The notes beneath the pieces are model-generated. The model was not told where the DNA came from, did no database searches, and was given only the letters and a program-made list of their open reading frames with translations. A program made the position numbers and the translations under genes. 64,000 nt of DNA from Spongiibacter tropicus DSM 19543. Lineage in GTDB: Bacteria; Pseudomonadota; Gammaproteobacteria; Pseudomonadales; Spongiibacteraceae. This document shows positions 3,238 through 12,745 of the stretch, piece after piece. The stretch covers positions 62,001-126,000 of the forward strand of contig NZ_ATUS01000001.1 of assembly GCF_000420325.1 (NCBI RefSeq). The letters are read 5' to 3'. How positions within the stretch are numbered: the first letter of the stretch is position 1; each line of letters begins with the position of its first letter.

Positions 3238-5577
3238 ATGAGTTCAAACACAACATCTGGCGATGCATCTTGCCATAGTAATGACGCCACAACGTCACCC
3301 CATTATCTTCACACCCATGATCATCACCATCATGACGCCAAGACCGCCAATCTGCAGGAGCTCATTATTGAAGGAGCGGGCTGCGCCAGTTGCGTCGGGA
3401 AAATCGAGTCAGCATTGAATGCTGTGCCGGGCGTAGAAAAGGCGGAGATGAATTTTGCGATGCGCACCGTAAGTGTGGCGGGCACGGCGCCAGCAGATGC
3501 TTTGGTCAATGCGGTAGAGAAGGCCGGCTATAACGCCAAAATCGCAACGGCCGAGCATGAAGACGATGCGCTGGCGGAAAAAGAACAGGCAGATTGGGCC
3601 TATTACAAACGTCTGATGCGTGACATGACCATCGCCTTGTCCGTAGGTGTGCCGCTGATGATATACGGCATCGTCGGCGGCGCAATGACCGTGAATACGA
3701 CCGGTGAGCGCCTTGCGTGGTTAGCGGTAGGGCTCCTGACATTCGCCGTGATGGTCATTGCGGGTAAACATTTTTATATCGGTGCCTGGCAGTCCTTCAA
3801 AAACCACTCGGCCAATATGGACACCTTGATCGCGCTGGGCACAGGCACCGCATGGCTGTACTCCATGGTCGTTGTAGCCGCTCCCCAGCTCGTTCCGGAA
3901 ATGGCGCGACATGTGTACTTCGAAGCTACAGCCATGATTATTGGCTTAATTGACCTGGGCCTGGCGCTTGAACTGAAGGCCCGGGGCCGGACATCTGAAG
4001 CCATAAAGCGGCTTATCGGCCTGCAAGCTAAAACTGCCAGAGTCATTCGCGACGACAAAGAACTCGACGTGGCTATTGAGCAGGTATTAATGGACGACAT
4101 TGTCCGTGTGCGACCGGGCGAGAAAATTCCTGTCGATGGTGAAGTCATCGACGGTCATACGGCCATAGATGAGTCCATGCTAACCGGGGAACCGATGCCC
4201 GTTGAAAAAGCCGAGGGCGATGCTGTAGCGGCGGGCACCATCAATAAAACCGGCTCAATACGGTTCAAAGCCACCCGCGTCGGCAAAGACACGGCGCTCG
4301 CGCAAATTATCAATATGGTCAAGCGCGCGCAGAATTCCAAGCCGCCCATAGGGCGTTTGGCAGACGTGATCTCGGCGTATTTTGTGCCGGTCATCATGAT
4401 TATTGCCATCACAAGCGCACTGGCATGGCTCAATTTTGGTCCCGATCCAGCGCTTGCCTTTGCCATTGTGTCAGCCACCACCGTGCTGATTATCGCTTGC
4501 CCCTGTGCACTGGGGCTGGCAACCCCCATGTCGGTCATGGTGGGCGTGGGCAAAGCGGCGGAGGCGGGTGTGCTGATCCGCAATGGCGAAGCCTTGCAAA
4601 CCGCATCGAAAATATCGGCCATGATTCTGGATAAAACCGGCACGATCACACTGGGCGCCCCGAAAGTCACCGATATTCTAATCGCTAGCGAGGAGGACGA
4701 GAGCACCGTGCTAAAACTGGCGGCATCCCTTGAATCCGGATCAGAGCATCCCCTCGCGTTAGCCATTGTTGAGACTGCCCGAGAGCGGGGCATCGAGAGC
4801 AGCAAAGTCGCTAACTTCAGCGCCATTGCAGGCCATGGCGTGCAGGCGGACGTTGACGGTAAGACATTGCTGTTCGGCAACGAAAAACTGATGCGCGAGC
4901 GTAATATCGACCTCGGTGAGTTCGTCGAAAAAGCACAAAATCTCGCCATTGAGGCAAAAACTCCCATGTATTTCGCGGTGAACAATCGGCTGTCCGCCAT
5001 TATCGCCGTGGCTGATCCCATCAAAGACGACTCCATTGCCGCCATAAAACGCCTGCAACAGAACGGTATTCGCGTCGTCATGCTGACCGGTGATAACCGC
5101 GCGACGGCAAAGGCCGTTGCCGCAAAGGCGGGCATTTCCGAGTTTTTCGCCGAGGTACTGCCAGAAGACAAATCCAAAAAAGTTCAGGAATTGCAGATGG
5201 AAGGTGAAGTGGTCGGCATGACCGGCGATGGCATTAACGATGCGCCAGCGCTGGCCATCGCCAATGTCGGGTTTGCCATCGGCACCGGTACCGATGTGGC
5301 CATCGAGAGTGCCGATATCACCCTCATGCGTGGATCGCTGCACGGACTTGCCGATGCCATAGCGGTAAGCAAAGCCACGCTGCGCAACATCAAACAGAAC
5401 CTCTTCGGCGCCTTCGTCTATAACGCTGCCGGTGTGCCCTTTGCTGCGGGCGTGTTGTATCCATTCTTTGGCGTGTTATTGAGCCCGGTCGTCGCGGGGG
5501 CTGCGATGGCATTTTCGTCCCTGACCGTCGTCACAAACGCCAACCGTCTGCGCCTGTTTAAGGCACAAGAACACTAG
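3238..5577 (+). CDS. copA: Copper-exporting P1B-type ATPase CopA
   Basis: Inner-membrane pump that exports Cu(I) from the cytoplasm using ATP. The 779-residue product has a His-rich N-terminus (HTHDHHHH, 25-32), one heavy-metal-associated domain with GCASC (48-52), the transmembrane CPC motif (421-423), phosphorylation site DKTGT (D465), the SEHPLA histidine (H504) and GDGIND (663-668). CPC with a single GxxC-type domain is the P1B-1 (copper) signature. The start is the ATG 180 bases after the CueR-type promoter. A cupredoxin gene follows 36 bases later, probably co-transcribed. The His-rich extension may add metal binding (inference). No regulator gene is adjacent. Confidence 0.96.
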
Positions 5578-5613
5578 AGAGCGCCAACCAGCATCCTGTT
5601 AAGGAGAGTAGAT

Positions 5614-5970
5614 ATGCTTTTGATCAATATCGTCGGTATCGTGCTGATAGCACTGATTGTATGGTGGTTCTGGCTGTACAAGCCTAAAGAGGCCGAGCTT
5701 GGCGAAAACGACCTGATAATCACCGTCGAAAACGGCACGTACTCGCCTGCGAGAATCAAAGTGCCCGCAGGGAAGGCGATAGACATTAAATTCATGCGCA
5801 AAGACCCAACGCCTTGTTCCGAAACCTTGCTGATCCCCGAGTTAAGCATCAGCGAAACGCTGCCACTCAACAAACTGAAGTCGATCACTTTGCCGGCATT
5901 ACAGGCGGGCGAGTACGCATTCCATTGCCAGATGCAAATGTACCGGGGACAGATCATGGTTGGTAACTAA
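5614..5970 (+). CDS. Membrane-anchored cupredoxin-domain protein
   Basis: A 118-residue protein with one N-terminal membrane anchor (about residues 3-21, LINIVGIVLIALIVWWFWL) and a small cupredoxin fold. Potential copper ligands are C68 (PTPCSE), H104, C105, M107 and M109 (FHCQMQM). The AAGGAG ribosome site precedes ATG 5614. Position just after copA indicates a periplasm-facing copper carrier or chaperone that receives copper exported by CopA or passes it on (inference). Ligands differ from classic azurin/plastocyanin because the usual first histidine is replaced near C68. Confidence 0.85.
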   Translation: MLLINIVGIVLIALIVWWFWLYKPKEAELGENDLIITVENGTYSPARIKVPAGKAIDIKFMRKDPTPCSETLLIPELSISETLPLNKLKSITLPALQAGEYAFHCQMQMYRGQIMVGN

Positions 5971-6143
5971 GTCTTGTGGAGGCTATTTCAAAGCCCGCAT
6001 GCCATCGATAAAACCGAGAGCTTGTCATGAAGCTGATGACCGTGTACCGGCCTTCAGTCCGCTTTGCCTAGCCTTATTGGGCTTGCACCCCGCGAAAACC
6101 TCTCGTATAACAGATAGATAATTGCACCAAGGAATTAGGTGAA

Positions 6144-6371
6144 ATGGTACGGATTCAGGACAGCGGCGGGGCATTTCCGGCGCCCCGGACCAAGCGGCTC
6201 TTCTACCCGAATGAGCCGCACCTCGATACGTTCCCCATTCAGGACTGGAAGCGCCTGATCGGCAATCTCGACACCGTCGACGCCACATCAGCATACTTCC
6301 TCAAACTCGAAATCCTGGGCCTGTTAACAGCCGATCTCGGACATTTTTTTGAGGGGGTAGATTTTCACTAA
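6144..6371 (+). CDS. Hypothetical short protein, possibly a gene remnant
   Basis: A 75-codon frame with strongly GC-rich third positions for its first 65 codons, as expected for real coding sequence of this genome, then an abrupt turn to AT-rich codons (GHFFEGVDFH). A plausible ribosome site (AGGAATTAGGTGA) precedes the ATG. I do not recognise the product. The composition switch near 6345 suggests that the 3' end was replaced when neighbouring AT-rich DNA arrived. The opposite strand also has a 49-codon GC-rich frame (ADQALPVLNGERIEVRLIRV), so strand assignment is uncertain. Confidence 0.3.
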   Translation: MVRIQDSGGAFPAPRTKRLFYPNEPHLDTFPIQDWKRLIGNLDTVDATSAYFLKLEILGLLTADLGHFFEGVDFH

Positions 6372-6466
6372 CTGAAATCCATATAAGAATTTAAATAACC
6401 AATGAAACGATCATTGATGGTGGCTCGGCCCCGTGGACGACTGCTCATGTAAAAATAGGTGAATAA

Positions 6467-7117
6467 GTGCCAACAATATTCGAAGCAAAAATAGATGGAT
6501 CTAATGCGATCAGATACTTCCATTTCTCACTAGTCGAATTTTATCTAGAACAGGCCTATGTCAACTCTACGCAGGCAAAAGAAGATCAAGAGCCTAATCA
6601 TCTCTTAGCATCGAGCATCATGGGCATTATGTTTTCAGCAATGGCGCTAGAGGCATTTGCCAATGAGATCTCAGAGGAAATAATCCCTAAAGAGGATTTG
6701 AAGAGCTTTATTCACCTTAGAAAAGGATACAAGAAGTTACAGGGTGAATCGTCGGTACTAGCCAAGCTCCGGATATTGTTTAAAGAAAAATTTAATCACG
6801 ACCTAGACTCTGATGCGAAGTCTGGTTTGGAAAAGCTTACATCGTTACGAAACAACCTAGTCCATTACAAGCTAAGCGATCTTGCCGGTAAATATATCAT
6901 GCCTCCAGTTGGTAACATGGATGTAGGAGGTGGGCAAAAAATGCTCACCATTGACTTCATGCAAAAGCCTGAAAGAGTAGAACCCCCGTTTATACAAGAG
7001 GTTACTGGTGACGCGGCTCTTGAATGCTTCAATCATGCCTATTCAGTTATAGAAACATGGAATTCTCTAATATCAAAAAAGGAACAAGATTCTGGAAACG
7101 ACGTAAGTACTAGATAA
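6467..7117 (+). CDS. HEPN-like domain protein, orphan in accessory island
   Basis: A 216-residue, AT-rich gene starting at GTG. It is mostly helical in appearance: a stretch with ALEAFANEISEE (about 64-75), then charged helices and SLRNNLVHYKL with an R128-x4-H133 pair. Rx4-6H after a helix is the catalytic signature of HEPN ribonucleases, and a conserved acidic/aromatic helix before it fits. Many such stand-alone proteins sit in defence or toxin-antitoxin loci. No MNT nucleotidyltransferase or other partner is next to it, so a toxin role is unproven. Composition unlike its neighbours suggests transfer. Confidence 0.6.
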   Translation: MPTIFEAKIDGSNAIRYFHFSLVEFYLEQAYVNSTQAKEDQEPNHLLASSIMGIMFSAMALEAFANEISEEIIPKEDLKSFIHLRKGYKKLQGESSVLAKLRILFKEKFNHDLDSDAKSGLEKLTSLRNNLVHYKLSDLAGKYIMPPVGNMDVGGGQKMLTIDFMQKPERVEPPFIQEVTGDAALECFNHAYSVIETWNSLISKKEQDSGNDVSTR

Positions 7118-7451
7118 AGCAGTTTAAAAGTACGCAGTTAACCCGCCCCAATAATGCGAAGTGGAAGAAGGGCTACGCAGCTTCACGCTGAAGCTCGATG
7201 CCTTCTTCGCTGAGATACCATATTTTACATAATATATATTATGCGAACATTTGGGGACTGAATGGCGTCGCAAGCCCGGTCAATCCGTTCCCGTAACTCG
7301 CTTGCTTTTGTCGACTGTCCGTAGCCGACACGAACGCCCTCGAATTAAAACGCTGAACACCGATGCCCTTGCGCTTGCCGTGCAACGGCATATCCGGACG
7401 TCAGTCCAGACATGCTTGACGCCGGAACCCAATAGCTTGCAAGTCGGGCAC
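7118..7451. other. Intergenic stretch containing the dif-like site
   Basis: No convincing gene. The minus strand at 7160-7215 reads YLSEEGIELQREAA then stop, a coding-like scrap of unknown origin. The dif-like Xer site at 7222-7249 is the only clear element. Confidence 0.5.
7222..7249 (-). other. dif: dif-like XerC/XerD recombination site
   Basis: On the minus strand the 28-mer has a XerC arm TGTTCGCATAA, centre TATATA and XerD arm TTATGTAAAAT. Against the gammaproteobacterial dif consensus as I recall it (arms RNTKCGCATAA and TTATGTTAAAT, centre TGTATA) 25 of 28 positions agree. It could be the chromosome-dimer resolution site or the attachment site of a Xer-dependent integrated element. 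Only one such site was found in the window. Confidence 0.75.
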
Positions 7452-8450
7452 TTAATCGGTGAAGCAGATTTCCTTGCCGTTGCCCTGGTCGTAGCAATCG
7501 CGGCGATTGGAGTTTGGCGCTGACGGCAACTGGTTTTGCGAGTTGTTGATCATTGTTCTGTATGCGGCATCTGCAGCCTGTTTGCGGGCTTGGTCTTTGG
7601 CTGCCTGTTTATCGCGTTCCTGCCTGGCATAGAATTCACGCTGCGCACGGCCCGCCTCATAAGCCTCTTTGGCTAGTTTCTGGCCCCGAATACTATCGAG
7701 ATATTGCTGACGTTGAGCTGCTGCGATTTTTCGTGCTTTCTCGGCGGCTTCTCGACCCGCTGCGTCGTTTTCCAGCGCGTATTCATAGGCGATGGCAGGA
7801 ACATATCCACACCCTCGCGCATTGCGATGCTCGATTTGCGAGCGCCCCCAATGCATCAAGGCTTTATCTTTTGCTAGGTAGTGCGTCATTTTCGGCATTG
7901 CCGCTGCCGCGTTGCAGAAATTGGCCGAGAATTCACCGCGAATCAGGCCAATCTCCTCGAAATTGAGCTCTGCGCTGCGCTCACCAAAGCAATCGCCGTA
8001 AATCTTTGTCACCATGATCATCGCTTCACGCGGCGGATACTCGGATATTCTGTCGAGAGGAAGCGGCTTGTGCTTTTCCAGCGCTTTTTCCACCTTTTTA
8101 TCGGGCACAATGCCCCAGCGGTTTGGTTCGCCTTTCTTTAATTTATTGGAGGAATCTTGAGCCCATTTTCCGAATACCTGTGCTGCGAAGTCGCGTTGCA
8201 TGTAGGAGGCCGCCGTTTGTATCCCCTCTTTGCCCTTCAGGGCCCAAAACGCAACAACACCAAAAGACTTGTCGACAGCGATGAAGGCGCGGGGATTCTC
8301 GAGCTGCTCTGAGCTTAAATTTCATGCGGGCGGAGGCTGACTGTTCGAGTCCAATTGCGCCACGGCAGTGGAAGAAAAAGAAAAAATGGCAACGGTGGCC
8401 ACTATTGACGCGGCCGTAAACGCCCCGCTCGCCTTCGTATGCTTGGGCAT
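7452..8450 (-). pseudogene. Secreted Ala/Gln/Lys-rich protein interrupted by an in-frame TGA
   Basis: From ATG 8450 the frame encodes a clear signal peptide (SGAFTAASIVATVAIFSFSS then TAVA) and stops at TGA 8324-8322 after 42 residues. The same frame then stays open for 289 further codons, through AFIAVDKSFGVVAFWALKGK, to 7452. Removing the single stop gives a 332-residue exported protein with a central Cys-containing domain and a C-terminal helical region rich in Ala, Arg, Gln and Lys (about residues 215-305), probably coiled coil. ATG 8201 gives a 249-residue product without a signal peptide, unlikely to be functional. I do not recognise the family. A sequencing error or recent nonsense mutation are both possible. 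Confidence 0.7.
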
Positions 8451-8488
8451 CAGCTTCCCTCTATAAATGTTACAGCGCTGGGTTGTCG

Positions 8489-8842
8489 TTACTGAGTTGC
8501 AGCGTTGTTTTGCGAAAAGTCGGCCATATCCAGATGGTTCAGGTTAAGAATGCCGTGCTGGACGGCGACGAGTGTCGCCATCGCGCGATTTCTAATCCCG
8601 AGTTTTCGGTAAATTTCTTTCACGTATCCGTCTACCGTGTACATGCTGATAGATAAGATATTTGCAATCATCTTGTTGCTCTTACCCATCGCGAGTTCCT
8701 GGAGCACCTGGCGTTCGCGTGGCGTGAGGGGCAGCGGTTTTGCACTGGAATACGGGGTATTAGCGTTGTCGAGGGGCATTTTGGCGATCACTTTTCCGTT
8801 GCGATTGCCGAGTATCTTCCCCTGTGAATACGGGGCTGACAA
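8489..8842 (-). CDS. LuxR-type HTH transcription regulator without a sensor domain
   Basis: A 117-residue product consisting almost entirely of a LuxR/FixJ-type DNA-binding domain: LTPRERQVLQELAMGKSNKM followed by the recognition helix region TVDGYVKEIYRKLGIRNRA. The start given is a TTG; ATG 8779 would give 96 residues and still include the whole HTH. There is no receiver or autoinducer-binding domain, so the protein must respond through dimerisation, a partner, or its own level. It lies 24 bases downstream of a LysR-type gene on the same strand and could be co-transcribed. Targets unknown. Confidence 0.8.
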   Translation of the reverse strand: MSAPYSQGKILGNRNGKVIAKMPLDNANTPYSSAKPLPLTPRERQVLQELAMGKSNKMIANILSISMYTVDGYVKEIYRKLGIRNRAMATLVAVQHGILNLNHLDMADFSQNNAATQ

Positions 8843-8865: not shown

Positions 8866-9774
8866 TTAGATTATCTTATTCGACCATTCTTTGGCGATGA
8901 TACCCGCTACCCACTGATGGAAGTCCTGAATGACTTGATCACCCTGATGCTTGTTGCTGTAGGTCAAAAAACATTCACCGTGCCGGGTAACTTTCTCGGC
9001 CATTGGCAGCACCAACTCATCGTCGCTGCGCATGAATTGATAGGACGTGGGCAGGTAGCCCATTGCGACGCCGATGTTGCTCTTCACGGCCTCGATACTC
9101 GCCTGCACCGTGCTGACTACCAGCTCGTTTGCAATATCCGGGAGCAGGCCCCACTGCGTTTGCCATCGTGGCCATTGGTAACTGTCGTTGGCGATTTTAA
9201 TGATCCGGCAGCCGCTGAAATCGCCGGCGCTCAAGCCGGGATGTTCGGCGAGGTAGCTCCGTGTGCAGATGGGCGTCAACGAGATTTCTACCAGGGGATG
9301 GTAGGTAAGCTCGGGCTCATTGCCACATTCGTGACGGATAGCGACGGTGGTTTCCGACTGTTCCAAATCAACCCGCGAGACATCGGAATCGATCTGGATT
9401 GTTAGCTCTGGATATTTCGGCTGGAACTCGTGGATGTTGGGAAACAGTAACAGCGTTGCGATATTTGGCAGTGTATTGATGACAAAACGCTGTTTTTTCC
9501 GCTCTTTGCGCACCGCCAGTGTGGCGGTATCAATCAAGTCCAGACCGCGTTTGACATGCAGATAGTAGCGTTTGCCTTCTGCCGTCAGGGAGATTTTGCG
9601 ATTTTCCCGTTTGAACAGCGCCACACCCAGATTTTCTTCCAGCGCTTTGATCTGGTGGCTGACTGCCGGGGGCGATACAAACAGTTCGTCTGCGGCGTCT
9701 TTGAAGCTTAATCGGCGAGCGGCAACTTCAAAAACACGAATCAGGTTAAGTGAAGGCAGGTGCTGGGTGGGCAT
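8866..9774 (-). CDS. LysR-family transcriptional regulator (GcvA-like)
   Basis: A 302-residue LysR-type regulator. Residues 8-67 form the winged HTH (LNLIRVFEVAARRLSFKDAA, then SPPAVSHQIKALEENLGVAL), followed by a periplasmic-binding-protein-like effector domain. The opening PSLNLIRVFEVAARRLSF and RTSYLAEHPGL-type text resemble the GcvA/AmpR subgroup. The ATG start follows an intergenic region of about 150 bases shared with the rhombosortase 3' end. A LysR regulator often controls a divergent neighbour, but here no gene is directly divergent, so its target cannot be inferred. Confidence 0.9.
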   Translation of the reverse strand: MPTQHLPSLNLIRVFEVAARRLSFKDAADELFVSPPAVSHQIKALEENLGVALFKRENRKISLTAEGKRYYLHVKRGLDLIDTATLAVRKERKKQRFVINTLPNIATLLLFPNIHEFQPKYPELTIQIDSDVSRVDLEQSETTVAIRHECGNEPELTYHPLVEISLTPICTRSYLAEHPGLSAGDFSGCRIIKIANDSYQWPRWQTQWGLLPDIANELVVSTVQASIEAVKSNIGVAMGYLPTSYQFMRSDDELVLPMAEKVTRHGECFLTYSNKHQGDQVIQDFHQWVAGIIAKEWSNKII

Positions 9775-9921
9775 ACGATACGACTCAACGATACAGCAGG
9801 CTAATCTATACGAGTGTTGCGGAATAACAACAAGAATATCCTAATGTTACGCGCGATATCACCCTGCACGCCGCAGATACCGAAATGTCTCACTCCCCTG
9901 TTGCTCAGGCAGACCATCACC

Positions 9922-10521
9922 CTACTCACCTCCACGCCCCAACGCTCGGCTGAGGCGCTGCGCAAGTGCCGACATCGCGCACAGAGTAACGCCGGATACC
10001 GCCCCCCATAAATGGGCCTCGGTGGCGACTCGCATGTCTATCAGCGATTCCGTGCTGCTAGTATCCAGCAGTCCGCTTTGTTCCAGTACGATTTTTGTCA
10101 GGAGCAGCAATAACAGCACTGGGCCGCTTATCGCGTGTTCGCGCCACAGCCAGATGCCGATGACCACGCTTAAACCATGTAGAACCCCAGACAAGCCCAC
10201 ATAGTGCTCCAGCTGGGGCTCCATCAGCAGAAGAAATCCGCCTGTGAGCAGGGCTACGACGACCACGACCGGCAGGAGGTAACTCCTGTTTTTCTCGGGA
10301 ATCAAACCGGCGAGTAATATCAAGGCAGCGAGATTCATCGCCATGTGTATGAGGTTCGAGTGAACAAAGTGTCCGCTGATTAGCCGCCACGGCATAGCGG
10401 CCAGAATGGCCTGGCGTTGATAACTCAACTCGGTTACGCCGCTCTCTGTTACCAGTTGCAGCACTATCAGCAAGGCCGCGATTCCCAGCAGCGCCGGATA
10501 TGGCCAGTTATTTCTCCACAC
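9922..10521 (-). CDS. rrtA: Rhombosortase (rhomboid-family sorting protease)
   Basis: A 199-residue intramembrane serine protease with about six hydrophobic segments. Rhomboid features: HFVHSNLIHMAMN (51-63), GLSGVLHG with the catalytic serine S111, and a later catalytic histidine H170 in TEAHLWGAVSG. The size and GLSGxLHG form match the rhombosortase subfamily, which processes proteins with a GlyGly-CTERM tail. The gene directly divergent from it encodes a protein ending in exactly such a tail, strong support for the assignment. The start is GTG; no ATG fits the frame. Confidence 0.92.
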   Translation of the reverse strand: MWRNNWPYPALLGIAALLIVLQLVTESGVTELSYQRQAILAAMPWRLISGHFVHSNLIHMAMNLAALILLAGLIPEKNRSYLLPVVVVVALLTGGFLLLMEPQLEHYVGLSGVLHGLSVVIGIWLWREHAISGPVLLLLLLTKIVLEQSGLLDTSSTESLIDMRVATEAHLWGAVSGVTLCAMSALAQRLSRALGRGGE

Positions 10522-10696: not shown

Positions 10697-12745
10697 ATGA
10701 CGAGGTCTCTCCGGATGACGTTTCTGCGCGCAGTCATAACGATGTGCAGGCTGCTTATTGCCCTTTTTCTAATTGCCCCCAGCCATGCCAACACCGCCGC
10801 GCCACTGCCCTTTCACGGCTGGACGCTGACGCATGACGACATGGCCTACAATTTATCGGCGATAAGCAGAATGCAAGAATTCGGCGTGACACATGTTCAG
10901 CTCTCTCACCGCATTGTCACCCGCGTCGACCAGTTCCAGTCAGAACCAGAGGTCGTAGATCGCGTCCGGACACTGGCCAGTGCCATCCATAGTCAGGGTG
11001 GCCAGGCGATTGTCTGGATGCAGGAGCTTAACACCTCAGATACGCTCGCTTACTGCTTTGACCTGGACGGTGAGCAGATGCAGGAAAAAATGCAGGCCTA
11101 CCGGGATGCCCTGACAGCCGCGCCGGAAATCGACGGTGTGATGATTAGTTTCGGTAGCGCGCCGAGCGAGTTGCAGTACGTGCTTCCAAGCTGCAAGCCA
11201 TTGGAGTTTGCACAGCCCAAGGCCCGTTACAAAGCCATCATCGAGGCGGTTTCTCGTGTGGTAATGGATGAGTTCGGCAAGCAGGTGTACGTGCGAACTT
11301 TCTATCACAAGGGGCACGAGATACCGATTCTTCGCAATGCCTTGCAGGAAACCAAGCGGCCCATTGTGGTGATGTCTAAAGCCGAACCCAATGATTTTGA
11401 ACCCTATTACCCGCTTAATCCCTTAATTGCCGACGTCGGCGATCACGATCAGTTTTTCGAGCTGGATTGCGCCGGGGAATACTGGGGGCGTGGAGCGCTC
11501 CCCTTTGTTGCGATCGAGTACTTCGTACAGCGCTATCGCGAAGCCGCCCAGCGTCAAGCCACGGGCAAGGGCCGCTTTATTGGATCAACATGCCGGGTCG
11601 ACCGCTACGAATACTCAGCACTGGAAACCCTGAATGAAGCCAATCTGTTTGCGCAGGCTCAGCTCGTTCGCGACCCCAGTGTGAGCGCGCAGACGATTCT
11701 TCGTCGTTTCGTGGAATCGCAGTACGACCTCCCTGCGGGCAGCGATGAGCACCACGTGCTGGCCGACATTCTGCGCCGCACTTATTGGATTGGTCGAAAA
11801 ATGTACTACGCCAAGGGGGAGTGGGCGTTCAAGAAAGGCAGCGACCTCCCGTCCAGTAATACCGATGCCCTGGGCAATATGATCGATAAGAGCATCTCTC
11901 AGTGGGAGCCCGCCTACACGCCGATTACCGCCGCCCTGCTCTCACCCGGCCGCCAGACACTGCAGGAGCTGGGGCAGGAAAAGTTTGAAGCCAGTGACCT
12001 CGCGCGGCGAAATCTTGAGACCCTGGAGCAGTTACGGAGTGCGCTGCAGCCGAGCGATTACACAGCGATCGAGACGCTATTGCTGAAACAGCGAATCGCC
12101 GCGGACATTTGGCGGCATATGTCCGGCGCGGTGTTTGCTGCGCGTAGTTTGAACCTGGCGTCGTCGAACTGGGCCGCTTGGCATCTCGAGCAGATGGAAG
12201 CGATTGCCCAGCAGTTGGACCAACAGTCCTACCCTCAACTGCCCGATACGTATCCCTTCTCTAGCGACGACATTCGGGCGTTTGCGGAGAGCGAGCGTCG
12301 GTTCTTGTTCGCTACCGCAGCCTCCCCACTGGAACAATTGACTATCAGCATGATTGATGTCGTGCCTAGCACTAGCAATTCCCTCACGCTGCGCTGGCTG
12401 GCGGAAGCCGATACCCAGTACCGCATTGAACTCAGCCAGCAGCTTCCCAACTACACGACCGAGATAGCGATCGACGGGACGAGTGAGGCCCTGCCGAGCC
12501 TGAATGACTTTACGATTACCGATCTTGAAGCGGACTCGCCGTACTGGTTACGCATCACGGCCAGCCGCGGCGAGGAAACGGTGAGCTCTGGCGATTTTCC
12601 TGTCTGGACCCTGAGTACGCTCGATGCGCAAGATTCCGGGACACCGTCACTGCAATCGCGCTCGGCATCGGGTGGCGGCGCACTGTCACTGTGGTGCCTT
12701 ATTGGCTTGGCAATGATGCAATGGGCCCGCCGACGCGGGCCTTAG
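10697..12745 (+). CDS. Large secreted GlyGly-CTERM protein, possible glycosidase-like barrel
   Basis: A 682-residue exported protein. An N-terminal signal peptide (about residues 13-31, ITMCRLLIALFLIAPSHA) is followed by a large region that looks like a TIM-barrel glycosidase (FHGWTLTHDDMAYNLSAISR, VTHVQLSH, DGVMISFG, FFELDCAGEYWGRG), an Fn3-like domain near 560-645 (NSLTLRWLAEADTQYRIELS), and a C-terminal sorting tail: SGGGALSLWCLIGLAMMQWA plus RRR. That tail is the GlyGly-CTERM signal cut by rhombosortase; such proteins usually leave through type II secretion. The cognate protease is divergently encoded 175 bases away. The enzyme class is a guess, distantly reminiscent of alpha-glucuronidase-type barrels. 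Confidence 0.85.
   Translation: MTRSLRMTFLRAVITMCRLLIALFLIAPSHANTAAPLPFHGWTLTHDDMAYNLSAISRMQEFGVTHVQLSHRIVTRVDQFQSEPEVVDRVRTLASAIHSQGGQAIVWMQELNTSDTLAYCFDLDGEQMQEKMQAYRDALTAAPEIDGVMISFGSAPSELQYVLPSCKPLEFAQPKARYKAIIEAVSRVVMDEFGKQVYVRTFYHKGHEIPILRNALQETKRPIVVMSKAEPNDFEPYYPLNPLIADVGDHDQFFELDCAGEYWGRGALPFVAIEYFVQRYREAAQRQATGKGRFIGSTCRVDRYEYSALETLNEANLFAQAQLVRDPSVSAQTILRRFVESQYDLPAGSDEHHVLADILRRTYWIGRKMYYAKGEWAFKKGSDLPSSNTDALGNMIDKSISQWEPAYTPITAALLSPGRQTLQELGQEKFEASDLARRNLETLEQLRSALQPSDYTAIETLLLKQRIAADIWRHMSGAVFAARSLNLASSNWAAWHLEQMEAIAQQLDQQSYPQLPDTYPFSSDDIRAFAESERRFLFATAASPLEQLTISMIDVVPSTSNSLTLRWLAEADTQYRIELSQQLPNYTTEIAIDGTSEALPSLNDFTITDLEADSPYWLRITASRGEETVSSGDFPVWTLSTLDAQDSGTPSLQSRSASGGGALSLWCLIGLAMMQWARRRGP

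Follow-up and report, generated by a model that had tools for sequence, protein, structure and literature searches.

A conserved, mobile HEPN-family gene beside dif in Spongiibacter tropicus that probably encodes a stand-alone defence ribonuclease

The 64,000-nucleotide stretch of the Spongiibacter tropicus DSM 19543 genome analysed here (the window) carries, at 6467..7117 on the + strand, a real, conserved and mobile gene of the HEPN family, the product of which is probably a stand-alone defence ribonuclease. A stand-alone defence gene is the most likely reading of the locus; its fold, motif and mobility are supported by computation, and ribonuclease and anti-phage activity are what we infer. 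We lean, with slightly more belief than doubt, towards a horizontally acquired, self-contained HEPN endoribonuclease that is activated conditionally, belongs to a family without a name and would work like Tha of Staphylococcus aureus prophages.

The gene starts with GTG and encodes a protein of 216 aa, predicted to be a ribonuclease that acts alone. This start is supported by the alignment of homologs from the same residue (MPTIFEAKIDG...). GC content is 0.402 in the open reading frame and 0.392 at its third codon positions, compared with 0.546 across the window and 0.556 in the gene of the neighbouring P-type ATPase, confirming the AT-rich reading frame with R128-x4-H133 that had originally been predicted from the letters. 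A search of the same genome with the protein gave a single match at E 0.001. No promoter above chance was found in the window, and a scan of 5500-8500 for a non-coding RNA antitoxin gave no Rfam match. An imperfect hairpin at 7164..7208 (no strand assigned), between the HEPN gene and the dif site that follows it, is weak (z -2.1) and is not called a terminator.

Predicted fold and conserved residues

No family in Pfam, NCBIfam or PADLOC claims the window protein above threshold, so annotation pipelines would probably label it hypothetical. Its nearest Pfam profiles were DUF3644 (E 0.0088) and Apea-like HEPN (HEPN_Apea, PF18739; E 0.029), both below cut-off. The homolog in G011, a genome of the same genus, matched HEPN_Apea at E 0.001, again below cut-off, and the member in G1299 had no Pfam match at E 0.1. 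Across four members the PF18739 matches ranged from E 0.001 to 0.029, ended just past the RNxxxH motif and scored 15.2 to 19.9 bits against a cut-off of 24.4. ApeA itself, as encoded in genome G740, is 462 aa long and possesses the ApeA N-terminal domain, whereas the 216-aa window protein lacks this domain.

An AlphaFold2 model built from a four-row alignment (window, L027, L028 and L029) reached a pLDDT of 73.4 and a pTM of 0.70; residues 1-19 and about 141-170 were modelled less reliably, with low confidence. It contains long helices at residues 20-39, 43-72, 75-92, 96-109, 115-143 and 181-211, and a predicted beta-hairpin after the motif helix, with strands within residues 148-162 (6908..6952, + strand); model confidence there is low, at 51-59 in blocks of 10 residues over residues 141-170. 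In VIA, which itself warns that a Z below about 13 may reflect merely the arrangement common to helical bundles, the best structural matches were 1ufb (Z 11.0), HepT of MntA-HepT (6m6w, 10.4), the HEPN protein AF_0298 (2hsb, 10.3) and TM0613 (10.1). These were followed by the HEPN toxins of other HEPN-MNT pairs, the sacsin HEPN domain (9.5), and YutE and Csm6 (8.1-8.5), and lower down by the ROQ domains of Roquin (6.9-7.5) and by AbiV (6.5-6.6); a fold of another helical kind first appeared with alpha-catenin (6.1). The HEPN matches covered residues 16-209 of the 216 in the model. We take 1ufb, 1wty, 2q00 and Csm6 to be HEPN proteins. 1wwp and YutE are named as such in PMC3710099, which gives the order of HEPN elements as an acidic residue in helix 2, an insert between helices 2 and 3, and an Rx4-6H motif ending helix 3; the secondary structure of the window model matches the order described there. 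Foldseek against the PDB also placed HepT chains first, weakly (E 0.12), and a viral structure library gave nothing at E ≤ 0.001 (best 0.026, a protein without a name). As helical bundles reach such Z scores, the case for HEPN rests on the consistency of this list, the order of secondary structure and the conserved residues taken together. The prediction of a HEPN four-helix fold is supported, and the alignment of the model with solved HEPN domains ahead of all others bears out the HEPN assignment first proposed from the motif.

Rx4H occurs once in the protein, as R128-N-N-L-V-H133 (codons 128-133, 6848..6865, + strand), the predicted catalytic motif. An Rx4H was present in 15% of 20,000 shuffled proteins of the same composition, and an RNx3H in 0.8%. 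Since so many shuffled proteins carry an Rx4H, the motif alone is weak evidence and the original prediction needed the support of homologs; conservation in 18 of 18 sequences is not weak. The alignment comprised the window protein, two Methylotenera copies, G1503, G011, G1299, G1285 and two sequences from one Bacteroidota genome, together with an IMG/VR contig, G1338, G1494, G1504, G1406, G014, G708, G740 and G1111, and identity to the window protein ranged from 59% down to 15%. Among 24 chosen columns inspected, F56, E62, R128, N129 and H133 were identical in all 18 sequences, so that the arginine and histidine of the original motif proved to be conserved. The protein thus has, on predicted helix 3, an Rx4-6H motif with a polar residue after the arginine, and an acidic residue in helix 2, namely the invariant E62 (codon 6650..6652, + strand), which falls in the predicted helix 2 (residues 43-72) of the model. 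The position four residues after E62 is N66 in 14 of 18 sequences and Y or F in the other four, not the K/R of the frequent Ex3[KR]. The conservation of E62 is partly due to the way the sequences were selected, as this residue sits inside the scan pattern that fetched L027-L029, and perhaps L042: L027-L029 were retrieved by patterns holding E62 without the RN...H motif and L042 by patterns holding both, with L002, L030, L046, L061 and L064-L072 coming from whole-protein or profile searches. After the motif, the segment KYI.PP ... DFM..P.R...PF is conserved in seven close members only; P146, P168 and P174 are common to these seven, and one further sequence has P at 146. Between the two Methylotenera copies dN/dS was 0.11, at a dS (1.16) near saturation; for the window protein against other members dN/dS was saturated.

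Similar folds are found in sacsin and MtlR, and the catalytic activity of the window protein is a prediction, which would leave room for a non-catalytic HEPN adaptor or a nucleotide- or RNA-binding protein of the kind seen in those two. However, an active site accounts better for the strict conservation of E, R, N and H in all 18 sequences, the identity of which falls as low as 15%, and we regard the adaptor as distinctly unlikely. The presence of HepT among the closest solved folds, and the abundance of similar HEPN toxins, raises another alternative, a HepT-like toxin neutralised by a nucleotidyltransferase or other antitoxin. HepT (HEPN-MNT, type VII toxin-antitoxin) shares its fold and the Rx4H with the window protein, but the latter is longer and has the predicted beta-hairpin after its motif. 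It also lacks the tyrosine of RX4HXY, which lies at +2 after the histidine and is the AMPylation site of HepT according to PMC7641770; position 135 is K in 16 of 18 sequences, including K135 of the window protein, and P in the other two. The two flanking reading frames (6144-6371 and 7452-8201) gave no match to an MNT antitoxin. A toxin of such a pair is thus very unlikely here, and an active HEPN ribonuclease working alone remains our preferred reading.

Distribution, integrons and neighbouring genes

Homologs are scattered over distantly related bacteria. Searches with the window protein found them in 2 of 57 genomes of relatives at E 0.01, in 2 of 18 genomes of the genus at E 0.001, and in 1 of 369 genomes of the class at E 0.001, this being its own genome. 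A two-row profile found 2 of 398 genomes of the phylum at E 0.001 (its own and G740), and a six-row profile found 11 of 390 in its own order at E 1e-5, its own genome and G011 included. In the family of one Methylotenera genome there were 2 of 187 at E 0.001, the two already known, and in the order of G740, queried with the G740 protein, 2 of 295 at E 1e-6. Two short patterns run against 84,980 species genomes yielded 3 confirmed loci from 153 stretches. The window protein matched none of 72,556 plasmid and 50,697 phage records and had no relative in a viral collection, from which the six-row alignment retrieved one IMG/VR contig (L042).

In the tree the window protein belongs to a clade of seven rows (support 97/99) with G1503, the two Methylotenera copies, G011, G1299 and G1285. 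By path it is closest to Methylotenera and to G1503, the latter from a species of another family, at 58-59% identity. The copy from the same genus, G011, is 41% identical and groups with G1299 and G1285 (98/97), not nearest to the window. This pattern, together with the low GC content, argues for horizontal transfer. Judged from sequence comparison, the gene is accessory and sporadic and has apparently moved between families and classes.

An integron feature was found at 9 of 18 family loci: an attC site at the gene end in five, a position inside arrays in two, an attC after the following genes in one, and an integrase only in one. As L078/L079 and L047/L082 are close pairs, the nine loci are not nine independent events. 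None was found at the other nine (window, L027, L028, L029, L042, L074, L075, L076 and L081). Two attC models were used: R1, built from G740 with L047 in its training set, and R2, built from eight attC of chromosomal integrons in the genome of the window (G000) and G011 with the L025 locus excluded. At L025 the G011 copy (9467-10096) and the gene for a 160-aa protein behind it are flanked by two R2 attC sites, at 9192-9279 (E 3.7e-6) and 10879-10960 (E 2.7e-11), both of which R1 missed. L078 (E 1e-5), L079 (8.5e-10), L080 (R1, 3.2e-5) and L082 (R1, 2.4e-11) each have an attC that overlaps the gene end or comes after it, and repeat families place one at the gene end in L047. In L077 the gene is flanked by attC sites on its own strand, at distances of about 1.8 and 2.0 kb. 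The locus with the integrase only, L048, has it 1.9 kb away (TIGR02249, 301.5 bits against a cut-off of 265), with its C-terminus cut short and no attC; it lies on the side that does not normally carry cassettes. L047 and L078 resemble integron cassettes of a single gene, each flanked by attC, although the upstream attC of L078 is weak (E 0.067). Papers by Kieffer and by Darracq reportedly describe integrons that carry phage-defence genes.

Near the window gene no attC was found by regular expression, by R1 (unfiltered best E 2.8) or by R2, whose best hit in the window (E 2.4) lies far away, although an odd attC there could be missed, as R1 missed both sites in L025. R2 over 203.5 kb of genus DNA around dif also found nothing at E ≤ 0.1 (one at 0.72).

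Several other integron and repeat features were seen in these genomes. G000 has integron integrases at C1:1400053-1400994, C3:9652-10581 and C6:216126-217072, two intact and one broken, with attC beside the first (L055) and none found beside the other two. In G740, about 206.5-223 kb of contig C8 (L047, L059) is a chromosomal integron with many attC and an integrase at C8:207946-208884. L025 contains direct repeats of about 200 bp (8596-8795 and 10181-10381, 93-94% alike) that bracket the HEPN gene and a gene for a 129-aa zinc-ribbon-like protein, with GGGGACAG...TTATTTT motifs near the repeats.

We read the neighbours by eye at 11 loci (window, L025, L027, L028, L029, L042, L047, L048, L073, L074 and L075; L076-L082 lie outside this set). 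In the window no partner-like gene was found beside the HEPN gene, and among the 11 loci only the two from Methylotenera shared neighbours, so the description of the gene as an orphan stands. Some relatives keep defence-type company. The homolog in G1503 (L073), at 59% the closest relative in the order, is immediately upstream of an Olokun system, with 64 bp between its end and OloA; OloA (E 1.3e-88) and OloB (E 5.3e-172) share its strand, and an attC lies 83 bp past OloB. The HEPN gene, OloA, OloB and the attC at L073 (1479-5768) all run in one direction, and this may perhaps be an Olokun system captured by an integron. In G1285 the HEPN gene follows PDC-M49A (1069 bits) and PDC-M49B, a candidate system, with one gene between. 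The G740 array includes ApeA (ApeA_NTD1 E 1.2e-58, HEPN_Apea E 1.3e-41), a TIR_2 cassette just at cut-off and a distant HEPN relative. In Methylotenera (L027 5297-8648; L028 5325-8645) the HEPN gene ends a conserved cassette with DUF3892, DUF2188 and two further proteins, of 91 aa and of 341/342 aa, the last with a partial-length match to PDC-M14A (1.5e-11) and its own RHPITH motif; the gene just before the HEPN gene is unmatched, and in L028 the preceding frame is at most 31 bp from the HEPN start. A further 128-bp stretch, 91% alike between L027 and L028, lies 0.7 kb downstream. When ten chosen proteins, nine of them neighbours, were run against PADLOC, no model matched the gene that directly precedes the HEPN gene in L074, in L075 or in L028. 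The defence neighbours may be island company only.

The Olokun, PDC-M49 and Methylotenera neighbours would also suit an accessory subunit of a larger defence system, Olokun or another neighbour in relatives, of which the window copy would be a stranded relic. Against this, among the 11 loci neighbours were shared at the two Methylotenera loci only, the two cassette-like relatives hold one gene each, and in three others attC stands at the end of the gene; the window frame is intact and keeps all conserved residues. We therefore consider a subunit unlikely. The defence-type label of the original prediction draws its support solely from the context of some relatives.

That the HEPN gene is the only defence-type candidate in the window, as originally predicted, is at best a tentative statement. 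In the window itself, no known defence system was found beside the HEPN gene, and the HEPN protein had no PADLOC match among 53 chosen reading frames scanned. The other frames matched 29 PADLOC models at E ≤ 0.001, used without the cut-offs of these models, which then also pick up housekeeping relatives; no Olo model was among the best 25 of the 29 families. The best scores over the 53 frames, not assigned to particular ones, were mad3 7e-29, mad2 1.9e-16 and mad8 8.4e-13, and these are possibly housekeeping relatives. When 20 of the 53 frames were run one by one at E 1e-8, those with matches were an 808-aa protein (BrxL and DolB models), a DEDDh exonuclease that also matched PDC-S48, and a frame with a weak match to mad2. 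The 808-aa protein is presumably Lon-like.

The dif site and its surroundings

The chromosomal dif site (TGTTCGCATAATATATATTATGTAAAAT) is located at 7222..7249 on the - strand, 104 bp from the stop codon of the HEPN gene, and is a neighbour of this gene, not part of its mechanism. Shuffled windows gave 0 matches to its 26-base core at ≤3 mismatches. Over 126 kb of the contig the next best match to the 28-mer, its own reverse reading aside, has 10 mismatches, and the 20-base core at ≤3 mismatches matches this one place in the whole genome. GC skew is mostly positive to the left of dif and negative to the right, with a cumulative peak about 12 kb to the left and then a plateau, and the KOPS-like GGGNAGGG occurs eight times forward and never in reverse on the left, and never forward and twice in reverse on the right. 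A scan of the genus matched 12 of 18 genomes, from which G005, G006 and G008 were left out by eye as un-dif-like; eight genus-mates have a clear 28-mer site with the arm TTATGTTAAAT (8 of 8 scored). The single copy, the reversal of skew and KOPS around it and its conservation in the genus together identify the window site as the chromosomal dif. One arm of the window site reads TTATGTAAAAT, against TTATGTTAAAT in all eight genus sites scored. The neighbourhood is the replication terminus, which explains nothing about the function of the HEPN gene.

The original prediction had placed the gene about 100 bases from a Xer recombination site and regarded that site as a landing place for mobile DNA. 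The distance was right, but the site is the chromosomal dif, and no second dif flanking the gene was found in 126 kb, so that capture by Xer is unsupported. Xer/IMEX integration at dif was rejected, as it requires two flanking sites and one was found in 126 kb. The proximity of dif and a decayed tyrosine recombinase nearby are what an element integrated through host XerCD (IMEX-type), with the HEPN gene as cargo, would account for; a dif-like site that is alone in 126 kb and has a skew and KOPS setting that fits a chromosomal dif, and a G011 locus in which no dif was found (best 11 mismatches in 19.5 kb), make such cargo scarcely credible.

The decayed recombinase is a 75-aa frame at 6144..6371 (+ strand), between the cupredoxin gene and the HEPN gene. 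It aligns to both ends of an intact 244-aa recombinase and has an in-frame internal deletion by which the middle of the protein was lost. The intact protein, with a Phage_integrase match, is encoded in G013 (L035 8515-9249), about 8 kb from dif, and such recombinases (<60% identical) are common on plasmids. The strip around dif is an accessory region. We compared the 20 kb surrounding the window dif with L025 and with the dif loci of eight genus-mates. Four of these shared dif itself: L033 with nothing further, L031 together with genes well to the left, L034 together with the ATPase and L035 together with the recombinase remnant. L036 had just genes well to the left in common with the window, and L032, L037, L038 and L025 nothing. 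Owing to this patchy sharing no clean empty site was drawn, and the window sequence preserves no record of the way in which the HEPN gene came in. In G009 (L034) the P-type ATPase and cupredoxin genes of window 3511-5955 lie beside dif on the opposite side and mirrored, which looks like an inversion about the terminus. The evidence for mobility of the HEPN gene points to the integrons and defence-type neighbours of its relatives, and to the decayed tyrosine recombinase upstream in the window, instead of to dif.

Comparison with one-protein HEPN systems and a proposed mechanism

The closest known parallel to the proposed mode of action is Tha, which PMC11087260 describes as a HEPN ribonuclease of S. 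aureus prophages activated by phage tail proteins, with the motif R265NSIMH270. Tha and the window protein share the RN-x3-H form of the motif. By that description Tha has 301 aa with an N-terminal region before its HEPN domain, whereas in the window protein HEPN fills nearly the whole chain and this region is absent. DS-11 is another one-protein HEPN defence system, according to PMC13092281. An Rx4H HEPN family typified by 3jrt is carried by gammaproteobacterial integrons (Table 1 of PMC3710099). The window protein did not match 3jrt by phmmer or profile against PDB sequences, and 3jrt was absent among the best 50 VIA rows; the window family is perhaps a second, separate integron-borne HEPN family. 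In the same paper integron-borne HEPN proteins are proposed to induce dormancy under stress, which by analogy would be a mild alternative to phage defence for this family. No description of the family was found by title or abstract in the best-ranked open-licence literature.

Since no antitoxin was found, the protein would have to be latent. A complete predicted active site, the missing antitoxin and repeated carriage by integrons (at least two one-gene cassettes) together argue for a latent ribonuclease switched on by a cue. By the HEPN biochemistry in the literature, the protein would form a homodimer with its two Rx4H motifs facing a cleft, in which H133, with R128, N129 and E62, would help the RNA 2'-OH to attack the backbone, no metal being involved. 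The segment after the motif, comprising the beta-hairpin (residues about 143-176), would be the likeliest seat of regulation or substrate choice. The latency, this seat of regulation and the steps that would follow are the least certain: the protein might be activated by a cue, most probably a product of the phage as with Tha, and host and phage RNA might then be cut, so that growth stops and the infection aborts.

More tentatively, and with somewhat more doubt than belief, we propose that these proteins form a partnerless, one-gene family of HEPN ribonucleases that may have used integrons and defence islands to spread in both Pseudomonadota and Bacteroidota, and may abort phage infection by themselves, sensing the phage with neither an antitoxin nor a CARF domain nor a nucleotide signal. 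Among defence ribonucleases HEPN domains form a major class, and a protein that combined sensor, switch and nuclease in one chain of 216 aa would offer a simple test case for the control of HEPN activity without an antitoxin.
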